64,000 bases of DNA from an uncultured Rhodospirillaceae bacterium (lineage in GTDB: Bacteria > Pseudomonadota > Alphaproteobacteria > UBA8366). A model generated the notes under the pieces. It did not search any database and was not told where the DNA came from. It saw nothing but the letters and a program-made list of their open reading frames with translations. The stretch is from NCBI GenBank assembly GCA_913043025.1, contig CAJWLM010000006.1, positions 1 to 64,000 on the forward strand. The letters are read 5' to 3'. Every line of letters starts with the position of its first letter. Within the stretch, counting starts at the first letter, position 1. Below are positions 34,061 to 60,047 of the stretch, piece after piece. Both the position numbers and the translations under genes were made by a program.

Positions 34061-34732
34061 TTAGGTCATTTGACGTGCAAGCACTTCCCTAGCAAGAGGC
34101 ACTGTTATTCGACGCTTTTCAATCAGAGCAGCCTCATCCAAAGCAGCAACCAAATTGCTAGCAGCCTCAAAAGTACGTTCCATGCGTGCCATTAAAAACG
34201 TTAGGACTTCAGGATCAACACTCAGCTGACGATCCGTGAATTGCTTTAACATTACAGCACCTACTAATGCATCATCTGGAATGCCAATACCTACTGTTGG
34301 TGCTGCTTGTAACCGCGAACGAAGGTCGGCAAGCCCAATGGCCAAGCGGGCCGGTGGATCCTCAGCTATAATCAGAAGATTGCCTCCTTTTTCAGCTGTG
34401 GTGTTGTATAAATGTAGGAGCGCTAATTCATCAAATGGAGATTTTAAAGAATCAATCAGGACAAAATTCTGTTTCTCTAAGTCGGCCGCTGTCTCAACCG
34501 AAAGGTCTTCCATCTGCAATCTATCTGCTCCCGATCGTGCGCACCAAATATGACCAAGATGGCTTTTACCAGACCCGACTGGACCAAAAATAAACAACGC
34601 AGGAGCGGGCCAATCAGGCCACCGATCTACCCAAGCGACAGCATCTTTATTGCAAGGTGCTACCAGGAAATCGCTGCTGCCAGCGGCAGAACGATATCCG
34701 AAGTCCAGTGGTATCTGAGATATTGGTGTCAA
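34061..34732 (-). CDS. hdaA: HdaA, DnaA-like inactivating factor
   Basis: About 224 residues. DnaA-like AAA+ protein: IPLDFGYRSAAGSSDFLVAP at the start, Walker A GPVGSGKSHLGHIW near residues 52-65, a Walker B-like LIDS, and sensor-like segments to the end. In alphaproteobacteria HdaA binds the sliding clamp to stimulate DnaA-ATP hydrolysis. The TTG at 34732 is preferred because AGGG lies five bases ahead and it starts just after the perM stop; a longer frame to 34828 lies inside perM. This start is a judgement call. Confidence 0.82.
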   Translation of the reverse strand: MTPISQIPLDFGYRSAAGSSDFLVAPCNKDAVAWVDRWPDWPAPALFIFGPVGSGKSHLGHIWCARSGADRLQMEDLSVETAADLEKQNFVLIDSLKSPFDELALLHLYNTTAEKGGNLLIIAEDPPARLAIGLADLRSRLQAAPTVGIGIPDDALVGAVMLKQFTDRQLSVDPEVLTFLMARMERTFEAASNLVAALDEAALIEKRRITVPLAREVLARQMT

Positions 34733-34739
34733 TATAACC

Positions 34740-35828
34740 CTATTGCGGATTCGGAGAATTAGGTTTTTCCGGCAATTCACCAGCATAAAGCCCACTACGT
34801 AAGTAGCAACCGAGAGCAAATCGAACAAGGACGCCTATCACGGCGGCCACTGGCACAGCCAAAAGAATCCCCAAAAAACCAAAAAGCGCGCCGCCGGCCA
34901 TTAATGCAAAAATAATCCAAACAGCGTGCAAACCTACCCGATCACCAACTAGTTTCGGGGTGACAAAGTTGCCCTCCATTATTTGTCCAGAAGCAAACAA
35001 AAGGCCAACTGCCAGTATTGGACCAAATGAGTCAAATTGTGCGATAGCAAGACCTAAGCCCACAAATACTCCCGCCAGCATTCCAAAATACGGAACGAAT
35101 GAAACCATACCCGTACCAAGACCAATAATCAGCCCGAAATCCAGACCGATAATCATGAGCCCTGCTGCGTAAAAAATTCCTAGAAGAAGACAAACCATAA
35201 ATTGGCCGCGCAAGAACCCAGACAGAGTAGTATCTATCAAAAGAATCTGTTCTTGTATTGTTTTCCGATAAGCGGGTGGAAGATATCCATCCACTCGATT
35301 TATAATTTTATCCCAATCTCGGAGTAAATAAAAGGCCACGATGGGCGTTATTGCTACGATAGAAATAACGTTTAGTGCTGTTTCAAGGCCACTAATAAGC
35401 CGAAATATTACACGCCCTGCGATAGCGGCTGCATCTCCAATATATTGGCCAAAAATTTTCTGGATCTCGCCTGCACCATCTCTGTCCAAGTATGCCATCA
35501 AATAGGCTATCACAGGCGTTAGTTTTATCTCTAAAGCACGAATATAACCGGGAACTTTCTCGATGAAATCAGTAATCTGATTGATTAGGAGTGGTGTCAA
35601 AAGTGCAAAAGCCAGTGCAATAATTACAAAGAACACAATAGTGACAGCGATTGATGCCCAAATCCTCGTAAAGTGCCTTTGTTCTAACCAATCGCAAACG
35701 GGATCGAGCAAATATGCCACTGCCATACCAATCACAAAAGGCAATAAAATCCCCCTCAATAGGATAAGCGTACAAACAATACCGACAATAATTAAAAGCC
35801 AAACTAAGCTTTTCTGCTGCAAGGTCAT
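34740..35828 (-). CDS. AI-2E family transporter (PerM-like)
   Basis: 362-residue polytopic permease: helix-rich, with LLPFVIGMAVAYLLDPV near residues 28-44, and the C-terminal IMEGNFVTPKLVGDRVGLHAVWIIFALMAGGALFGFLGIL block near 295-334 that identifies the PF01594 family. Substrates are unsettled; family names (PerM, TqsA) do not prove AI-2 export. Order pgsA-like, perM, hdaA on the minus strand is typical of alphaproteobacteria. Starts six bases after the pgsA-like gene. Confidence 0.93.
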   Translation of the reverse strand: MTLQQKSLVWLLIIVGIVCTLILLRGILLPFVIGMAVAYLLDPVCDWLEQRHFTRIWASIAVTIVFFVIIALAFALLTPLLINQITDFIEKVPGYIRALEIKLTPVIAYLMAYLDRDGAGEIQKIFGQYIGDAAAIAGRVIFRLISGLETALNVISIVAITPIVAFYLLRDWDKIINRVDGYLPPAYRKTIQEQILLIDTTLSGFLRGQFMVCLLLGIFYAAGLMIIGLDFGLIIGLGTGMVSFVPYFGMLAGVFVGLGLAIAQFDSFGPILAVGLLFASGQIMEGNFVTPKLVGDRVGLHAVWIIFALMAGGALFGFLGILLAVPVAAVIGVLVRFALGCYLRSGLYAGELPEKPNSPNPQ

Positions 35829-52938: not shown

Positions 52939-53826
52939 CTACTCCACATTTTGAACCTGTTCGCGAAATTGCTCTATCAAAGCCTTCATTTCAAGCCCGT
53001 GCTTTGTTAACTCTGTATCGTTTGCTTTTGAACAAATTGTATTAGCTTCACGATTAAATTCCTGACACAAAAAATCCAAACGCCGCCCTTTGGGATCACA
53101 CTCCTTTAGCAGCTCTTTTGAGGCAGCCACGTGCGATCGGAGGCGGTCCAATTCTTCAGTAATGTCAGACTTAACTGCAATTAGTGCAAGTTCTTGTAAT
53201 AAACGCTCTTCTGAAAGCGGAGGTTGCGCTTTTAAAATATTGCCGAGCTGAACTTGCAACCGTTCACTTTTATCTTGCCCCCTTCGAACCAAAATAATTT
53301 CAGTGGCATCAATACAATCTGAAATGCCTTGCAGCTGCCGCTGCAATACTTTTGCTAATTTTTCACCCTCTACTACCCGGTCGTGTTTTAATGTATCGAG
53401 TGCTTTCGCAAGTGATTCAATAATTTTAGCAATCCGCACCCCTTTTTCTTTCTCATCTTCAGCCTCTTCCCATTTTTCAACAACTCCACGCACACCAAGT
53501 AAAGCCTCGATATTCACCTTTTCACAGTGCCCCCTTTCTTGCACTGTCTCCACTAACTCATGCAAAAGTGTATGGTTTATGTGAAACTTATTTTGGATCT
53601 CAACTGCCTGTGACTGCGCAACCGTAAGTGCTACATTTAATGATCCACGTTTAAATCGATATTGAGCTTCCCGACGCACCTTCGGCTCAAGGCGATCATA
53701 TCCACTTGGCAATCGGACACGAATATCCAGGGATTTGTTATTCACGCTTTTTATTTCCCAGCACCAGGTCCAATTATCGTAATCACATTCTGCGCGGCCA
53801 AATCCAGTCATAGATGAAACGGTCAA
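52939..53826 (-). CDS. YicC/YloC family endoribonuclease
   Basis: 295 residues: SSMTGFGRAECDYDNWTWCWEIKSVN at the start and the C-terminal DFLCQEFNREANTICSKANDTELTKHGLEMKALIEQFREQVQN, the DUF1732 signature. Members are metal-dependent RNases that act on small RNA or mRNA. Paired with gmk. Confidence 0.92.
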   Translation of the reverse strand: MTVSSMTGFGRAECDYDNWTWCWEIKSVNNKSLDIRVRLPSGYDRLEPKVRREAQYRFKRGSLNVALTVAQSQAVEIQNKFHINHTLLHELVETVQERGHCEKVNIEALLGVRGVVEKWEEAEDEKEKGVRIAKIIESLAKALDTLKHDRVVEGEKLAKVLQRQLQGISDCIDATEIILVRRGQDKSERLQVQLGNILKAQPPLSEERLLQELALIAVKSDITEELDRLRSHVAASKELLKECDPKGRRLDFLCQEFNREANTICSKANDTELTKHGLEMKALIEQFREQVQNVE

Positions 53827-53915
53827 GGTATTCCCTTTCCGAAATTATTAATATAGTGACGTTGCCTTAAACTAACCGACCAGCGTTAAAGTTCAAACTG
53901 TGCTAGTGTGTAAAT

Positions 53916-54683
53916 ATGACTAAACATCCTTCATCAGTGTTAATTACAGGTGCTTCGAGTGGAATTGGTGAGGCACTCGCTATGGTTTATGCAGGTAAAA
54001 CAAAAAATTTGGCTATAAATGGACGTGATGCAAATAGGCTCAAGATGGTAGAGGCGGCCTGCAAACATAAAGAAGCATCTATCAATTGCAGAACGGTTGA
54101 TGTAGTGGACCAAAATGGAATGAGACAGTGGATCGAAACGATAGATGATTCTGCACCACTTGACTTAGTTATCGCCAACGCAGGCATTTCTGCCGGTTCC
54201 GGCTCCAGTGGCGAAACCGATCGGCAAGCACGAGAGATATTCTCAATCAATTTTGAGGGCATGCTAAATACAATCCATCCTGCAATCGACCGTATGAGGC
54301 AGCGCGAAAAAGGGCAGATTGCCATTATGAGCTCCCTCGCCGGGTTTCGTGGCCTGCCAGGAGCACCAGCTTATAGCGCGTCTAAAGCGGCTGCACGTAC
54401 TTACGGTGAAGCTTTGCGCGGTGCCCTTCAAAGACATAAGATAAATGTGTCGGTAGTATGCCCTGGATTTGTTCATACTAGAATGACGGCGAGAAATCAG
54501 TTCCCTATGCCTTTAATAATGGATGCTGAACGTGCAGCTTTGATTATCTACCGAGGCTTGCAAGGTAATAAGCCCATGATTGCATTTCCGATGGCGAGCC
54601 ATTTTCTAAGTTGGTTCATGGGCATCCTACCCAACCGGTTGACCGACCCTATAATGAATGCAATGCCAAACAAATATGATTGA
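53916..54683 (+). CDS. Short-chain dehydrogenase/reductase
   Basis: 255-residue SDR with TGASSGIGEAL near residues 11-21, IANAGISAGS, the Ser in IMSSLAGFRG and Y-S-A-S-K near residues 152-156, so a complete Ser-Tyr-Lys triad. Probably NADP(H)-dependent; substrate unknown. Its stop lies four bases from the end of the convergent SelW-like gene. Confidence 0.9.
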   Translation: MTKHPSSVLITGASSGIGEALAMVYAGKTKNLAINGRDANRLKMVEAACKHKEASINCRTVDVVDQNGMRQWIETIDDSAPLDLVIANAGISAGSGSSGETDRQAREIFSINFEGMLNTIHPAIDRMRQREKGQIAIMSSLAGFRGLPGAPAYSASKAAARTYGEALRGALQRHKINVSVVCPGFVHTRMTARNQFPMPLIMDAERAALIIYRGLQGNKPMIAFPMASHFLSWFMGILPNRLTDPIMNAMPNKYD

Positions 54684-54687
54684 GAGA

Positions 54688-54903
54688 CTATACACCCAGC
54701 TCATTTAAATGTTCCTCAGTCGGAAAATAACCGGTCTTAGAGATGCTAAAACGCAATTCTTGATCAATAAACACATCAAAGATACCACCGGTACCTTCTT
54801 GCAATGATACAGTAGCTCCGAATTTTTCAGTTAGGTAGTCTCTCACACGGAAAGCCTCTCGCTCATAACCTCAGGAATTACAAAAAACTATTAAAACGTT
54901 CAA
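54688..54903 (-). CDS. SelW/Rdx-family selenoprotein, CxxU (in-frame TGA)
   Basis: 71 residues when TGA at 54873-54871 is read as Sec11. Start TTG 54903 has GAGGG at 54915-54911, seven bases upstream. MNVLIVFCNSU carries the CxxU redox motif (Cys8, Sec11); after it come FGATVSLQEGTGGIFDVFID and LRFSISKTGYFPTEE, the family's G-x-G-G-x-F-x-V and F-S-K-x-x-G-x-F-P features. The frame is open for 60 codons after the TGA and ends beside the neighbouring SDR. A typical ORF search would miss it because of the short length and TGA. A glutathione- or thioredoxin-like redox role is inferred from the family. Confidence 0.88.
54848..54861 (-). promoter_or_regulatory. Weak SECIS-like hairpin of the SelW gene
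   Basis: On the minus strand, positions +10 to +23 after the TGA can pair as C-G, G-C, G-C, A-U, G-U with one bulged A, closing a GCU loop at +16 to +18 (54855-54853), with G first. It fits the distance rule but is short; computed folding would be needed. Confidence 0.4.
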
Positions 54904-54934
54904 GTGCAGACCCTCATAAAGTAAATATGAAAAC

Positions 54935-54950
54935 GCCGAACATCTTCGGC
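54935..54950. other. 6-bp hairpin near the SelW start
   Basis: GCCGAA (54935-54940) and TTCGGC (54945-54950) flank CATC, a perfect hairpin 31 bases ahead of the SelW TTG (minus strand). No T-run follows on either strand. It could be a protein-binding site or part of the leader. Confidence 0.35.
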
Positions 54951-55029
54951 CAAAACAACCATACTTCTATCGGAAAGTTACTCACGATGTTAATATCCTG
55001 CCAAACTTGATAGGTAAAGAAAGAATATT

Positions 55030-56412
55030 ATGGAAACTGCAGCTACAACTTCTAGCCAACGATACGGACTTACGGAACAATTAGCGCACTGGAGCAGTGA
55101 GCTGACGCTTGAGCAGGTGCCGGAGAGTGCTCAAATAAATGCAAAACACTGCCTGCTAGACTGGCTAGGAGTCACCCTTGCTGGCGCCCAGGACGAGTTA
55201 GTGGGCATTCTGCATGACACGGCAAACATGGAGGGCCTCGGAACCCAAGCGAGCCTAATCGGCCAAGGACAAACCGCCTCTGCGAGTCAAGCTGCTCTAA
55301 TTAATGGTGCTGCCGGGCACGCTCTTGATTACGATGATGTTGTGCGTATTTTTCGTGGCCACCCTACTGCTCCTGTGGCACCGTCAGTGCTTGCGATCGC
55401 TGAGCGCGACGGTTGTTCAGGGGCAGATCTTATGCTTGCCTTAATTGCGGGTATCGAGGTTGAGTCCCGCATTGGTGGTTACATGGGCGACCCACATTAC
55501 CTGAAGGGGTGGCATGCAACTGGCACAACAGGACACTTTGGCTCAGCTGCTGGTGTCTCAAAACTGCTGAAATTAGACGCAGCAACCACCGCAAATGCGC
55601 TTGGCATTGCAGGCACACAGGCCGCCGGCCTTAAAGCCAATTTTGGAACTATGTGCAAACCACTCCATGCAGGTAAAGCAGCCATGAATGGACTATTGTC
55701 AGCTGAATGGGCAAAACGCGGTTTTACCTCACGCCATAATATTGTCGAGCGCGTCGATGGGTTTGGTGAAAACTTTGGGGGGGAATGCAATGTGGATACA
55801 GCGCTAGAAGGACTCGGTGAAAAGTTTCACCTTACAGATTTACTCTTCAAATATCATGCCGCTTGTTATGGTGTACACTCACCCATTGAGTGTGCGAAAC
55901 GAATTTCTAAGAACCCAGCTTTCAACACCGAAAAGGTTGTAAAGATAGAGGTTCGGCACGCCGCACGTCTTAAAGGTATGTGTGATCAGCCAAAGCCAGA
56001 AACAGGGCTGGAGATCAAGTTTAGCCTATATATGACGACCGCCATGGCGTTGTCTGGTTTGGATACAGGAAGGCTTGACGTTTATAGTCCCATAACAGCT
56101 AAGAAAGCAGATTTGATAAAGCTTCGCGATAAAGTAACATTAATAGCTGAGGACACTTTTACGCCTAACCAATCAGAAGTAATTGTTCATCAAGATGACG
56201 GGACTGTAATCAGAGAGACCGATGATCTTGCTAAACCCAACCGCGACCTGTCGAGCCAATGGGATAAATTGTCCTCGAAATTTCGAGCTCTCACCGTACC
56301 TTTGGTCGGTGAAAAAAATGCCGAAACTACTATCGCCTCGGTATGGAACCTTGAGGATCAAACATCTTTATCATCCGTTATTTCCCCTATAGAAGGCGTG
56401 ATTGCTAATTAA
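55030..56412 (+). CDS. MmgE/PrpD family protein
   Basis: 460 residues, MmgE/PrpD fold: INGAAGHALDYDDVVRI near residues 95-111, HATGTTGHFGSAAG near 163-176, KANFGTMCKPLHAGKAAMNGLL near 203-224 and SPITAKKAD later. Closely akin to the 1314-2705 product. Starts at ATG 55030 with AAAGAA upstream. A hydratase or dehydratase is predicted; substrate not known. Followed by a 270-base AT-rich gap. Confidence 0.88.
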   Translation: METAATTSSQRYGLTEQLAHWSSELTLEQVPESAQINAKHCLLDWLGVTLAGAQDELVGILHDTANMEGLGTQASLIGQGQTASASQAALINGAAGHALDYDDVVRIFRGHPTAPVAPSVLAIAERDGCSGADLMLALIAGIEVESRIGGYMGDPHYLKGWHATGTTGHFGSAAGVSKLLKLDAATTANALGIAGTQAAGLKANFGTMCKPLHAGKAAMNGLLSAEWAKRGFTSRHNIVERVDGFGENFGGECNVDTALEGLGEKFHLTDLLFKYHAACYGVHSPIECAKRISKNPAFNTEKVVKIEVRHAARLKGMCDQPKPETGLEIKFSLYMTTAMALSGLDTGRLDVYSPITAKKADLIKLRDKVTLIAEDTFTPNQSEVIVHQDDGTVIRETDDLAKPNRDLSSQWDKLSSKFRALTVPLVGEKNAETTIASVWNLEDQTSLSSVISPIEGVIAN

Positions 56413-58339: not shown

Positions 58340-58654
58340 TCAAGTGCCCGGCACCATTAAATCAACAAACGGGGCGTATTGCTGCCCGGCATGACTGTCT
58401 GAATCACGGATATCACCTTGAAAACATGGCCTTGGAATAGAGATTTTGAACGCGTAACAGTTGTCAACCTCAAAAAACTGCACTTGGTTTTCTGACATTT
58501 GATAAATCTCAGAAACCATTCTCCTATTTAGTATTCCAGTCTTTTTAACTAATTCGTAAGTTTCAGAGTCCGCGAACATAATATCTATCGTCATTACAAA
58601 TGGCCCAGCATTCTTTGATCGTACTAACTTCGCTAATTCCCCAATTGTCTTCAT
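58340..58654 (-). CDS. DUF4387 family protein
   Basis: 104 residues: ELAKLVRSKNAGPFVMTIDIMF at the start, IPRPCFQGDIRDSDSHAGQQYAPFVDLMVP at the end, which is the DUF4387 pattern. Members are usually encoded next to AtuA-type genes, as here (10 bases after it). Function unknown; probably a partner of the AtuA-like protein. Confidence 0.85.
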   Translation of the reverse strand: MKTIGELAKLVRSKNAGPFVMTIDIMFADSETYELVKKTGILNRRMVSEIYQMSENQVQFFEVDNCYAFKISIPRPCFQGDIRDSDSHAGQQYAPFVDLMVPGT

Positions 58655-58664
58655 GCGACATCTC

Positions 58665-60047
58665 CTAATTTACATTCATGTATTCAATCGGAAACATCTC
58701 GTAAGGATCCACAGGCTCCAACACATGGTTAACATTAAACCTATATACTGCGCCGCGCTCTATATGAGCTGGGCTATAGGTGCAAGCAAGTCCAGTTATT
58801 AACCCACTCCATTCAGGGATGGGTTCATGCAAAATTTTGTGGCGTGCTATCGTGGCAATCGATGTTGCAATCTCTTGACTTGATGCGGTTGCCTCTAAGA
58901 TCAGACAAACTTCATGCGAAGTCAGTTCTTTTTGTGGTTCTAAAGGACCCATGACACCATTTTTACCGTATATTCGGATATTCAATACGTAATCATCACT
59001 AGTGATAGTATCGCCATAAACATCAGTGATCCGCTTGTGAATATTGGCTTCGCCTGTTTCTAACCAGCTATCAAGCTGACGCAATATGTATGGATCTCGC
59101 ACCCCCCCTATAACAATAGTCTGATATCCAACCTTTTCCGCCCCTTCCAATTTTACCGTGTATCTTGCTGCCGGCGCAAATCCAGACTTGGATACTCTCA
59201 CACACCTATCGTTTAGTGCCTCATAAACGGATGTCGACAAATCCATTGTCCCGCTGGACTCTACGAGGCGAAATGGATCAGCATTCTCATAGAGACTATG
59301 AGAGGCGACGCTCTGTGGAGTGCAGCGGAGGTCTTGGTCCAACGGTTCAACATCAAAGTGGTCGCCACGGCATGTGGCAAAGAGGCTGTCCGCGGTTTTG
59401 CGCATTTCCACAGATGCCGCACCACACTCAAGAATTTTTGCAGCATGCCAAGCAATACCAGCAGGAATGCCCTCTCGCACAGGTATGCCGGCGTAGATCG
59501 CACAGTCGCTAGAACGACCTGTTAAAACAACCTCTGCCCCATTATCAAGCGCTTTTAAAAATGGCTCCTCGCCCATCATGCCAACTATACGTTCGGCTTT
59601 GTCTATAGTTTCTTCATCAAACATCGGAGCGGGATCGAGTGGCTTAATGCGACCCTGCCTAAAACACTTTTTAAGGAAGTTCTTGTCTTGTTCAGCATGA
59701 ATCACGGCAAGCGGAAATTTAAGGCCCTCCTCTTCCGCTATTTCCAGCAATATCTCCTTTGCCGTAGCAACATGAGGATGACCACCAGAGGTACCTGCCG
59801 TGCCAAGGAGTAATGGTATTTTTTCTTTTTGCGCAGCTAATAACATCAATCGCATATCCCGTTTGATGGATGATCTCCCGAAAGCAGTTTCACCTGAACC
59901 AAGTGGATATGGTCCTGGGTCCGTCGACCCACCATCACAACCGATGAAATGTGGCTTCTTTCCAATACCTTCTTCAAGAGACTCAGCTCTAAATCCTGCG
60001 CCGCAAACGCCTGACCCTGCAAGAATCCTTACTTCCGTCGAAACCAT
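58665..60047 (-). CDS. AtuA-like acyclic terpene utilisation family protein (DUF1446)
   Basis: 460 residues. VRILAGSGVCGAGF, IGCDGGSTDPGPYPLGSG near residues 35-52 and LLGTAGTSGGHPHVATAKEIL near 80-100 are the DUF1446/AtuA family blocks. In Pseudomonas, AtuA belongs to the citronellol/geranyl-CoA route; here no geranyl-CoA carboxylase genes are present, so the substrate is open. GGAGG lies about nine bases upstream. Pairs with DUF4387. Confidence 0.85.
   Translation of the reverse strand: MVSTEVRILAGSGVCGAGFRAESLEEGIGKKPHFIGCDGGSTDPGPYPLGSGETAFGRSSIKRDMRLMLLAAQKEKIPLLLGTAGTSGGHPHVATAKEILLEIAEEEGLKFPLAVIHAEQDKNFLKKCFRQGRIKPLDPAPMFDEETIDKAERIVGMMGEEPFLKALDNGAEVVLTGRSSDCAIYAGIPVREGIPAGIAWHAAKILECGAASVEMRKTADSLFATCRGDHFDVEPLDQDLRCTPQSVASHSLYENADPFRLVESSGTMDLSTSVYEALNDRCVRVSKSGFAPAARYTVKLEGAEKVGYQTIVIGGVRDPYILRQLDSWLETGEANIHKRITDVYGDTITSDDYVLNIRIYGKNGVMGPLEPQKELTSHEVCLILEATASSQEIATSIATIARHKILHEPIPEWSGLITGLACTYSPAHIERGAVYRFNVNHVLEPVDPYEMFPIEYMNVN

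Follow-up and report, generated by a model that had tools for sequence, protein, structure and literature searches.

A 64,000-nucleotide stretch of DNA, here called the window, carries on its minus strand what we consider, at a probability of roughly 95%, to be a functional single-gene selenoprotein of the Rdx/SelW-like type, in which UGA would be read as selenocysteine (Sec); this reading combines sequence comparison with a structural model. The preliminary description had reported a SelW-like selenoprotein frame of 71 residues with a CxxU motif, a GTGG-x-F core and FP near its end. This observation was confirmed by the translation of positions 54903-54688 (minus strand), which reads LNVLIVFCNSUGYEREAFRVRDYLTEKFGATVSLQEGTGGIFDVFIDQELRFSISKTGYFPTEEHLNELGV*. 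The features of the locus are compiled in Table 1.

Table 1. Features of the putative selenoprotein locus and its flanking genes (window coordinates).
Feature	Position	Strand	Remarks
Rdx/SelW-like selenoprotein gene (predicted)	54688..54903	-	begins with TTG; 71 codons followed by TAG
UGA codon for Sec11 (putative)	54873-54871	-	C8-N-S-U11 motif; sole TGA inside the frame
SECIS apical stem-loop (putative)	54840..54854	-	stem 54854-54850 with 54844-54840; loop CGUGU 54849-54845
GAGGG, Shine-Dalgarno-like sequence	54911..54915	-	7 nt before TTG; AGGGG at the corresponding site of the sister genome
Short-chain dehydrogenase (SDR) gene	53916..54683	+	convergent; PF00106, 146 bits; its end and the selenoprotein stop lie 4 nt apart
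MmgE/PrpD family gene	55030..56412	+	divergent; PF03972, 220 bits

The Rdx similarity on which the preliminary description had staked its case was clear both by profile and by predicted fold. Profile searches gave 51.4 bits for the Pfam family PF10262 (Rdx; cut-off 22.6) and 39.4 bits for TIGR02174 (SelT/SelW/SelH; cut-off 34.2), both above the cut-offs, and in the 3.08-Mb genome this frame was the only Rdx match (E 1.6e-10, one internal TGA). The best-scoring NCBIfam model was NF041051 (SelTWH_Campy), which matched 35 of 35 homologues tested with E up to 0.001, yet the window protein, at 52.2 bits, stayed below its equivalog cut-off of 88 bits. An AlphaFold2 model calculated from 35 aligned sequences, the window protein and 34 locus proteins (U given as C), reached a pLDDT of 93.1. 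The single-sequence model was poor (pLDDT 68.7), and a fold search with that model was meaningless. Best fold matches to the alignment-based model were the SelW-related structures 2ojl, 2p0g, 2obk, 2fa8 and 2oka (Z 12.8-13.2, rmsd 1.0-1.2, 71 residues aligned), followed by MIEN1 (Z 9.2), mouse SelW (Z 8.7) and, lower, thioredoxins (Z 6-7). The protein is thus predicted to adopt a thioredoxin-like fold of the SelW type. The CxxU motif follows the first strand (residues 2-8 in the predicted model), and its columns C8-N-S-U11 were invariant in alignments A2 and A4.

The host possesses the complete machinery for Sec synthesis and insertion, the lack of which the preliminary description had named as a ground against its proposal. 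The genes selA (579 bits) and selB (442 bits) and a tRNA-Sec with the anticodon TCA (71 bits) lie consecutively on contig C4 (G000:C4:29084-32685), and selD (309 bits) was found on contig C2, fused to an N-terminal oxidoreductase domain. This SelD fusion protein carries Cys rather than Sec.

Conservation of the UGA was analysed in two sets of homologues. The first comprised 98 genomes, the host and its relatives, with 22 Rdx genes, of which 18 have TGA at the Sec position and 4 have Cys. The second consisted of named GTDB genomes, searched via the narrow alignment A3, as a 21-row alignment offered no sufficiently conserved pattern; here TGA stood at the Sec11 codon in 80 of 80 loci, these being the best 80 of 109 relatives. 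Carriers of the TGA form included Reyranella soli, Reyranella massiliensis, Enhydrobacter aerosaccus and Vineibacter terrae. The sets overlap in some contigs and together provide 85 distinct sequences. All 85 distinct close homologues retain the in-frame TGA and none has Cys, where the GTDB part again represents the best 80 of 109 relatives; Cys forms were detectable in that part, one scan pattern spelling Cys and the other being blind to position 11. A match to selA was present in 17 of the 18 genomes with a TGA-type Rdx gene as compared to 9 of the 80 other genomes (Fisher p 1.1e-11, uncorrected for shared ancestry), and the TGA-type genome without it, G053, is 77% complete. The comparison with Cys versions proposed in the preliminary description yielded the four Cys-type genes in relatives, which encode CxxC followed by RW or NW and a longer C-terminal tail. 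The identity of their products to the window protein is 17-33%, and selA was found in 0 of the 4 genomes that carry them. A search for related loci with the window protein alone found none, nor did a search of viral contigs.

Directly downstream of the UGA, nearly all homologues can form a stem-loop of the form CYYUC-CGUGY-GAGRG starting 16 nt after this codon. Among 17 distinct sequences, 98.8% of the cells for its five pairs held standard pairs, and in two of the five pairs both partners had changed (CG/UA; UA/GC, as seen in G003 and G007). The covariation score was reached by none of 500 shuffles and by no slide. Because the hairpin sits in coding sequence, the use of synonymous codons is of particular importance: the Arg codon in the loop was CGT in 78 of 84 sequences, whereas CGT accounted for 39 of the 362 Arg codons in the remainder of these genes. 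The published bacterial SECIS model specifies a loop of 3-9 nt, a stem of 4-16 bp, a G among the first two loop nucleotides, a UGA-to-loop distance of 16-37 nt and a minimum free energy of at most -7.5 kcal/mol (PMC13188914). The window hairpin fits this geometry: its stem has 5 bp, and its 5-nt loop CGUGU carries G at the second position and lies 21 nt after the UGA. The chief weakness of the selenoprotein case is the stability of this hairpin, which contains one U-G pair. Its 26-nt core reached -3.7 kcal/mol, and the 51 nt from the UGA reached -5.4 kcal/mol, short of the published threshold; neither was better than shuffled sequences. A stretch of 71 nt from the window gave -9.5 kcal/mol, but in a different fold. 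The 26-nt core of relatives reached values down to -11.1 kcal/mol, and the weak hairpin is common to the window gene and its sister in the same genus.

Two explanations in which the UGA does not encode Sec were rejected. If the locus were a degraded Rdx pseudogene, the TGA would be a true premature stop and the remainder a relic, as the non-ATG start and the weak predicted hairpin in this genome might suggest. This is highly unlikely, as the TGA occurs precisely at the redox Sec/Cys position in the 85 distinct sequences, the gene contains no other stop or frameshift, and the sister-species protein is 86% identical with base changes mostly at third positions (4, 5 and 12 by codon position). Even less credible is a reading of UGA as Trp or Cys through an altered genetic code or a leaky tRNA, for which nothing speaks except the open frame. 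TGA is an ordinary stop in 12 of the 37 window ORFs of at least 250 aa, which points to selective recoding at Sec11 rather than to a changed code; the full selA/B/C/D set and the covarying hairpin likewise argue for Sec.

A further alternative accepts the frame and places its start elsewhere, at CTG 54909 or another unusual upstream codon, which would result in a slightly longer protein. Upstream of the TTG, 21 further codons of the frame are indeed free of stops, and the CTG precedes the TTG by two codons. The sister species, however, has TGG in place of this CTG, and a gap of one base that separates the DNA of the two species upstream of the TTG, the only gap between the window gene and the sister DNA, shifts the frame there. 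Moreover, nearly all of the 85 distinct homologues begin at the equivalent residue (78 with ATG, 2 with GTG, 2 with TTG); the other 3 had no start codon within the stretch examined and have an ATG a few residues farther upstream. A different start is therefore very improbable, and the sequence comparison favours UUG at 54903 as the probable translation start. The TTG and the GAGGG ahead of it (54915-54911) were present as the preliminary description had stated, and its claim that an ATG is missing was borne out, as no in-frame ATG, GTG or TTG occurs from the nearest upstream stop down to the TTG. Among the distinct homologues, a TTG start was restricted to the own genus, where it is kept in the sister species (G002) together with a purine-rich stretch before it.

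For the selenoprotein reading, the following mechanism can be proposed. Ribosomes would start at UUG (54903), and SelB with Sec-tRNA(UCA) would bind the stem-loop 16 nt downstream of the UGA, inside the coding sequence, so that codon 11 would be read as Sec before termination at UAG. The product would be a minimal thioredoxin-like protein. A CxxU motif on such a fold implies a selenenyl-sulfide redox switch, and the Cys8/Sec11 pair could form this bond reversibly; the most likely role would therefore be that of a small thiol/selenol oxidoreductase or a redox-dependent binding protein. Its reduction might be accomplished by glutathione- or thioredoxin-type donors. An interaction of SelW with glutathione is mentioned, as earlier work, in a passage of PMC1088965. 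A 2026 review describes most such selenoproteins of prokaryotes as still largely uncharacterised in function (PMC13188914); Reyranella and other culturable carriers would therefore be useful for studying SelW-like biology. One can speculate, at rather long odds, that this clade of alphaproteobacterial SelW-like proteins uses Sec without a Cys counterpart for a task beyond the reach of cysteine, in connection with a selenium-rich way of life that includes a UGSC selenoprotein, selenoneine and a selenium transporter.

The closest known systems are bacterial SelW-like selenoproteins (PF10262; TIGR02174), with which the window protein shares CxxU, the predicted thioredoxin-like fold, a GxGGxF core and a putative SECIS within the coding sequence. 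What sets it apart is the UUG start of its genus and a hairpin whose folding energy falls short of the published limit. Bacterial SelW-related proteins of the Cys type, for example Atu0228 (PDB 2fa8), have the same fold (rmsd 1.1-1.2 over ~70 residues), and animal SELENOW and MIEN1 share the Rdx fold at 18-25% identity; the eukaryotic SECIS sits in the 3′ UTR. Descriptions of SelW-like selenoproteins in bacteria go back to at least 2005, and a new gene of this kind is therefore ordinary, though worth annotating. The SelW-like family ranks among the most abundant selenoprotein families known in prokaryotes (PMC1088965, PMC2398784). Our results indicate that a short gene combining a recoded stop with a rare start codon is real and that comparative evidence can validate such cases; they reveal the Sec form of the SelW-like family as widespread in alphaproteobacteria and extend the genome annotation by a likely redox protein.

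Gene context provided few clues to function. Profile matches on either side corroborated the position between an SDR and a PrpD gene that the preliminary description had given, and the selenoprotein gene is stand-alone. Within the same family, genera g1 and g4 retain the order YicC - SDR - selenoprotein - MmgE/PrpD (window 52939-56412), which does not extend beyond them. As the gene stands alone and its neighbours differ between lineages, no partner could be named from context. A consensus search for a sigma-70-like promoter and an Rfam search of the region (E up to 1) gave no match. The minus strand contains two terminator-like sites, the first at 54950-54935 upstream of the gene and the second within the gene itself. 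Farther along the window, DUF4387 and AtuA-family genes are adjacent on the minus strand (58340-60047).

Additional selenium-related genes were observed in the genome. A second selenoprotein, of the UGSC family, is encoded about 1.8 kb after tRNA-Sec, adjoining the selA-selB-selC cluster (L043:10481-11029, plus strand; contig C4, about 34480-35028), with an in-frame TGA in the UGSC motif and 149.5 bits to NF041046 (cut-off 125). Between tRNA-Sec and this gene lies an ORF for a 380-residue protein (L043:9320-10462) with no NCBIfam match, possibly linked to UGSC function. A cluster on contig C2 (L044:1839-9439) contains genes for selenoneine biosynthesis, encoding SenA (NF041186, 470 bits) and SenB (TIGR04348, 385 bits), which adjoin the SelD-oxidoreductase fusion. 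Next in this cluster comes an ABC transporter of the PhnCDE-like type, which may be a selenium transporter; its binding protein scored 362 bits against TIGR04553, the putative selenate-binding family.
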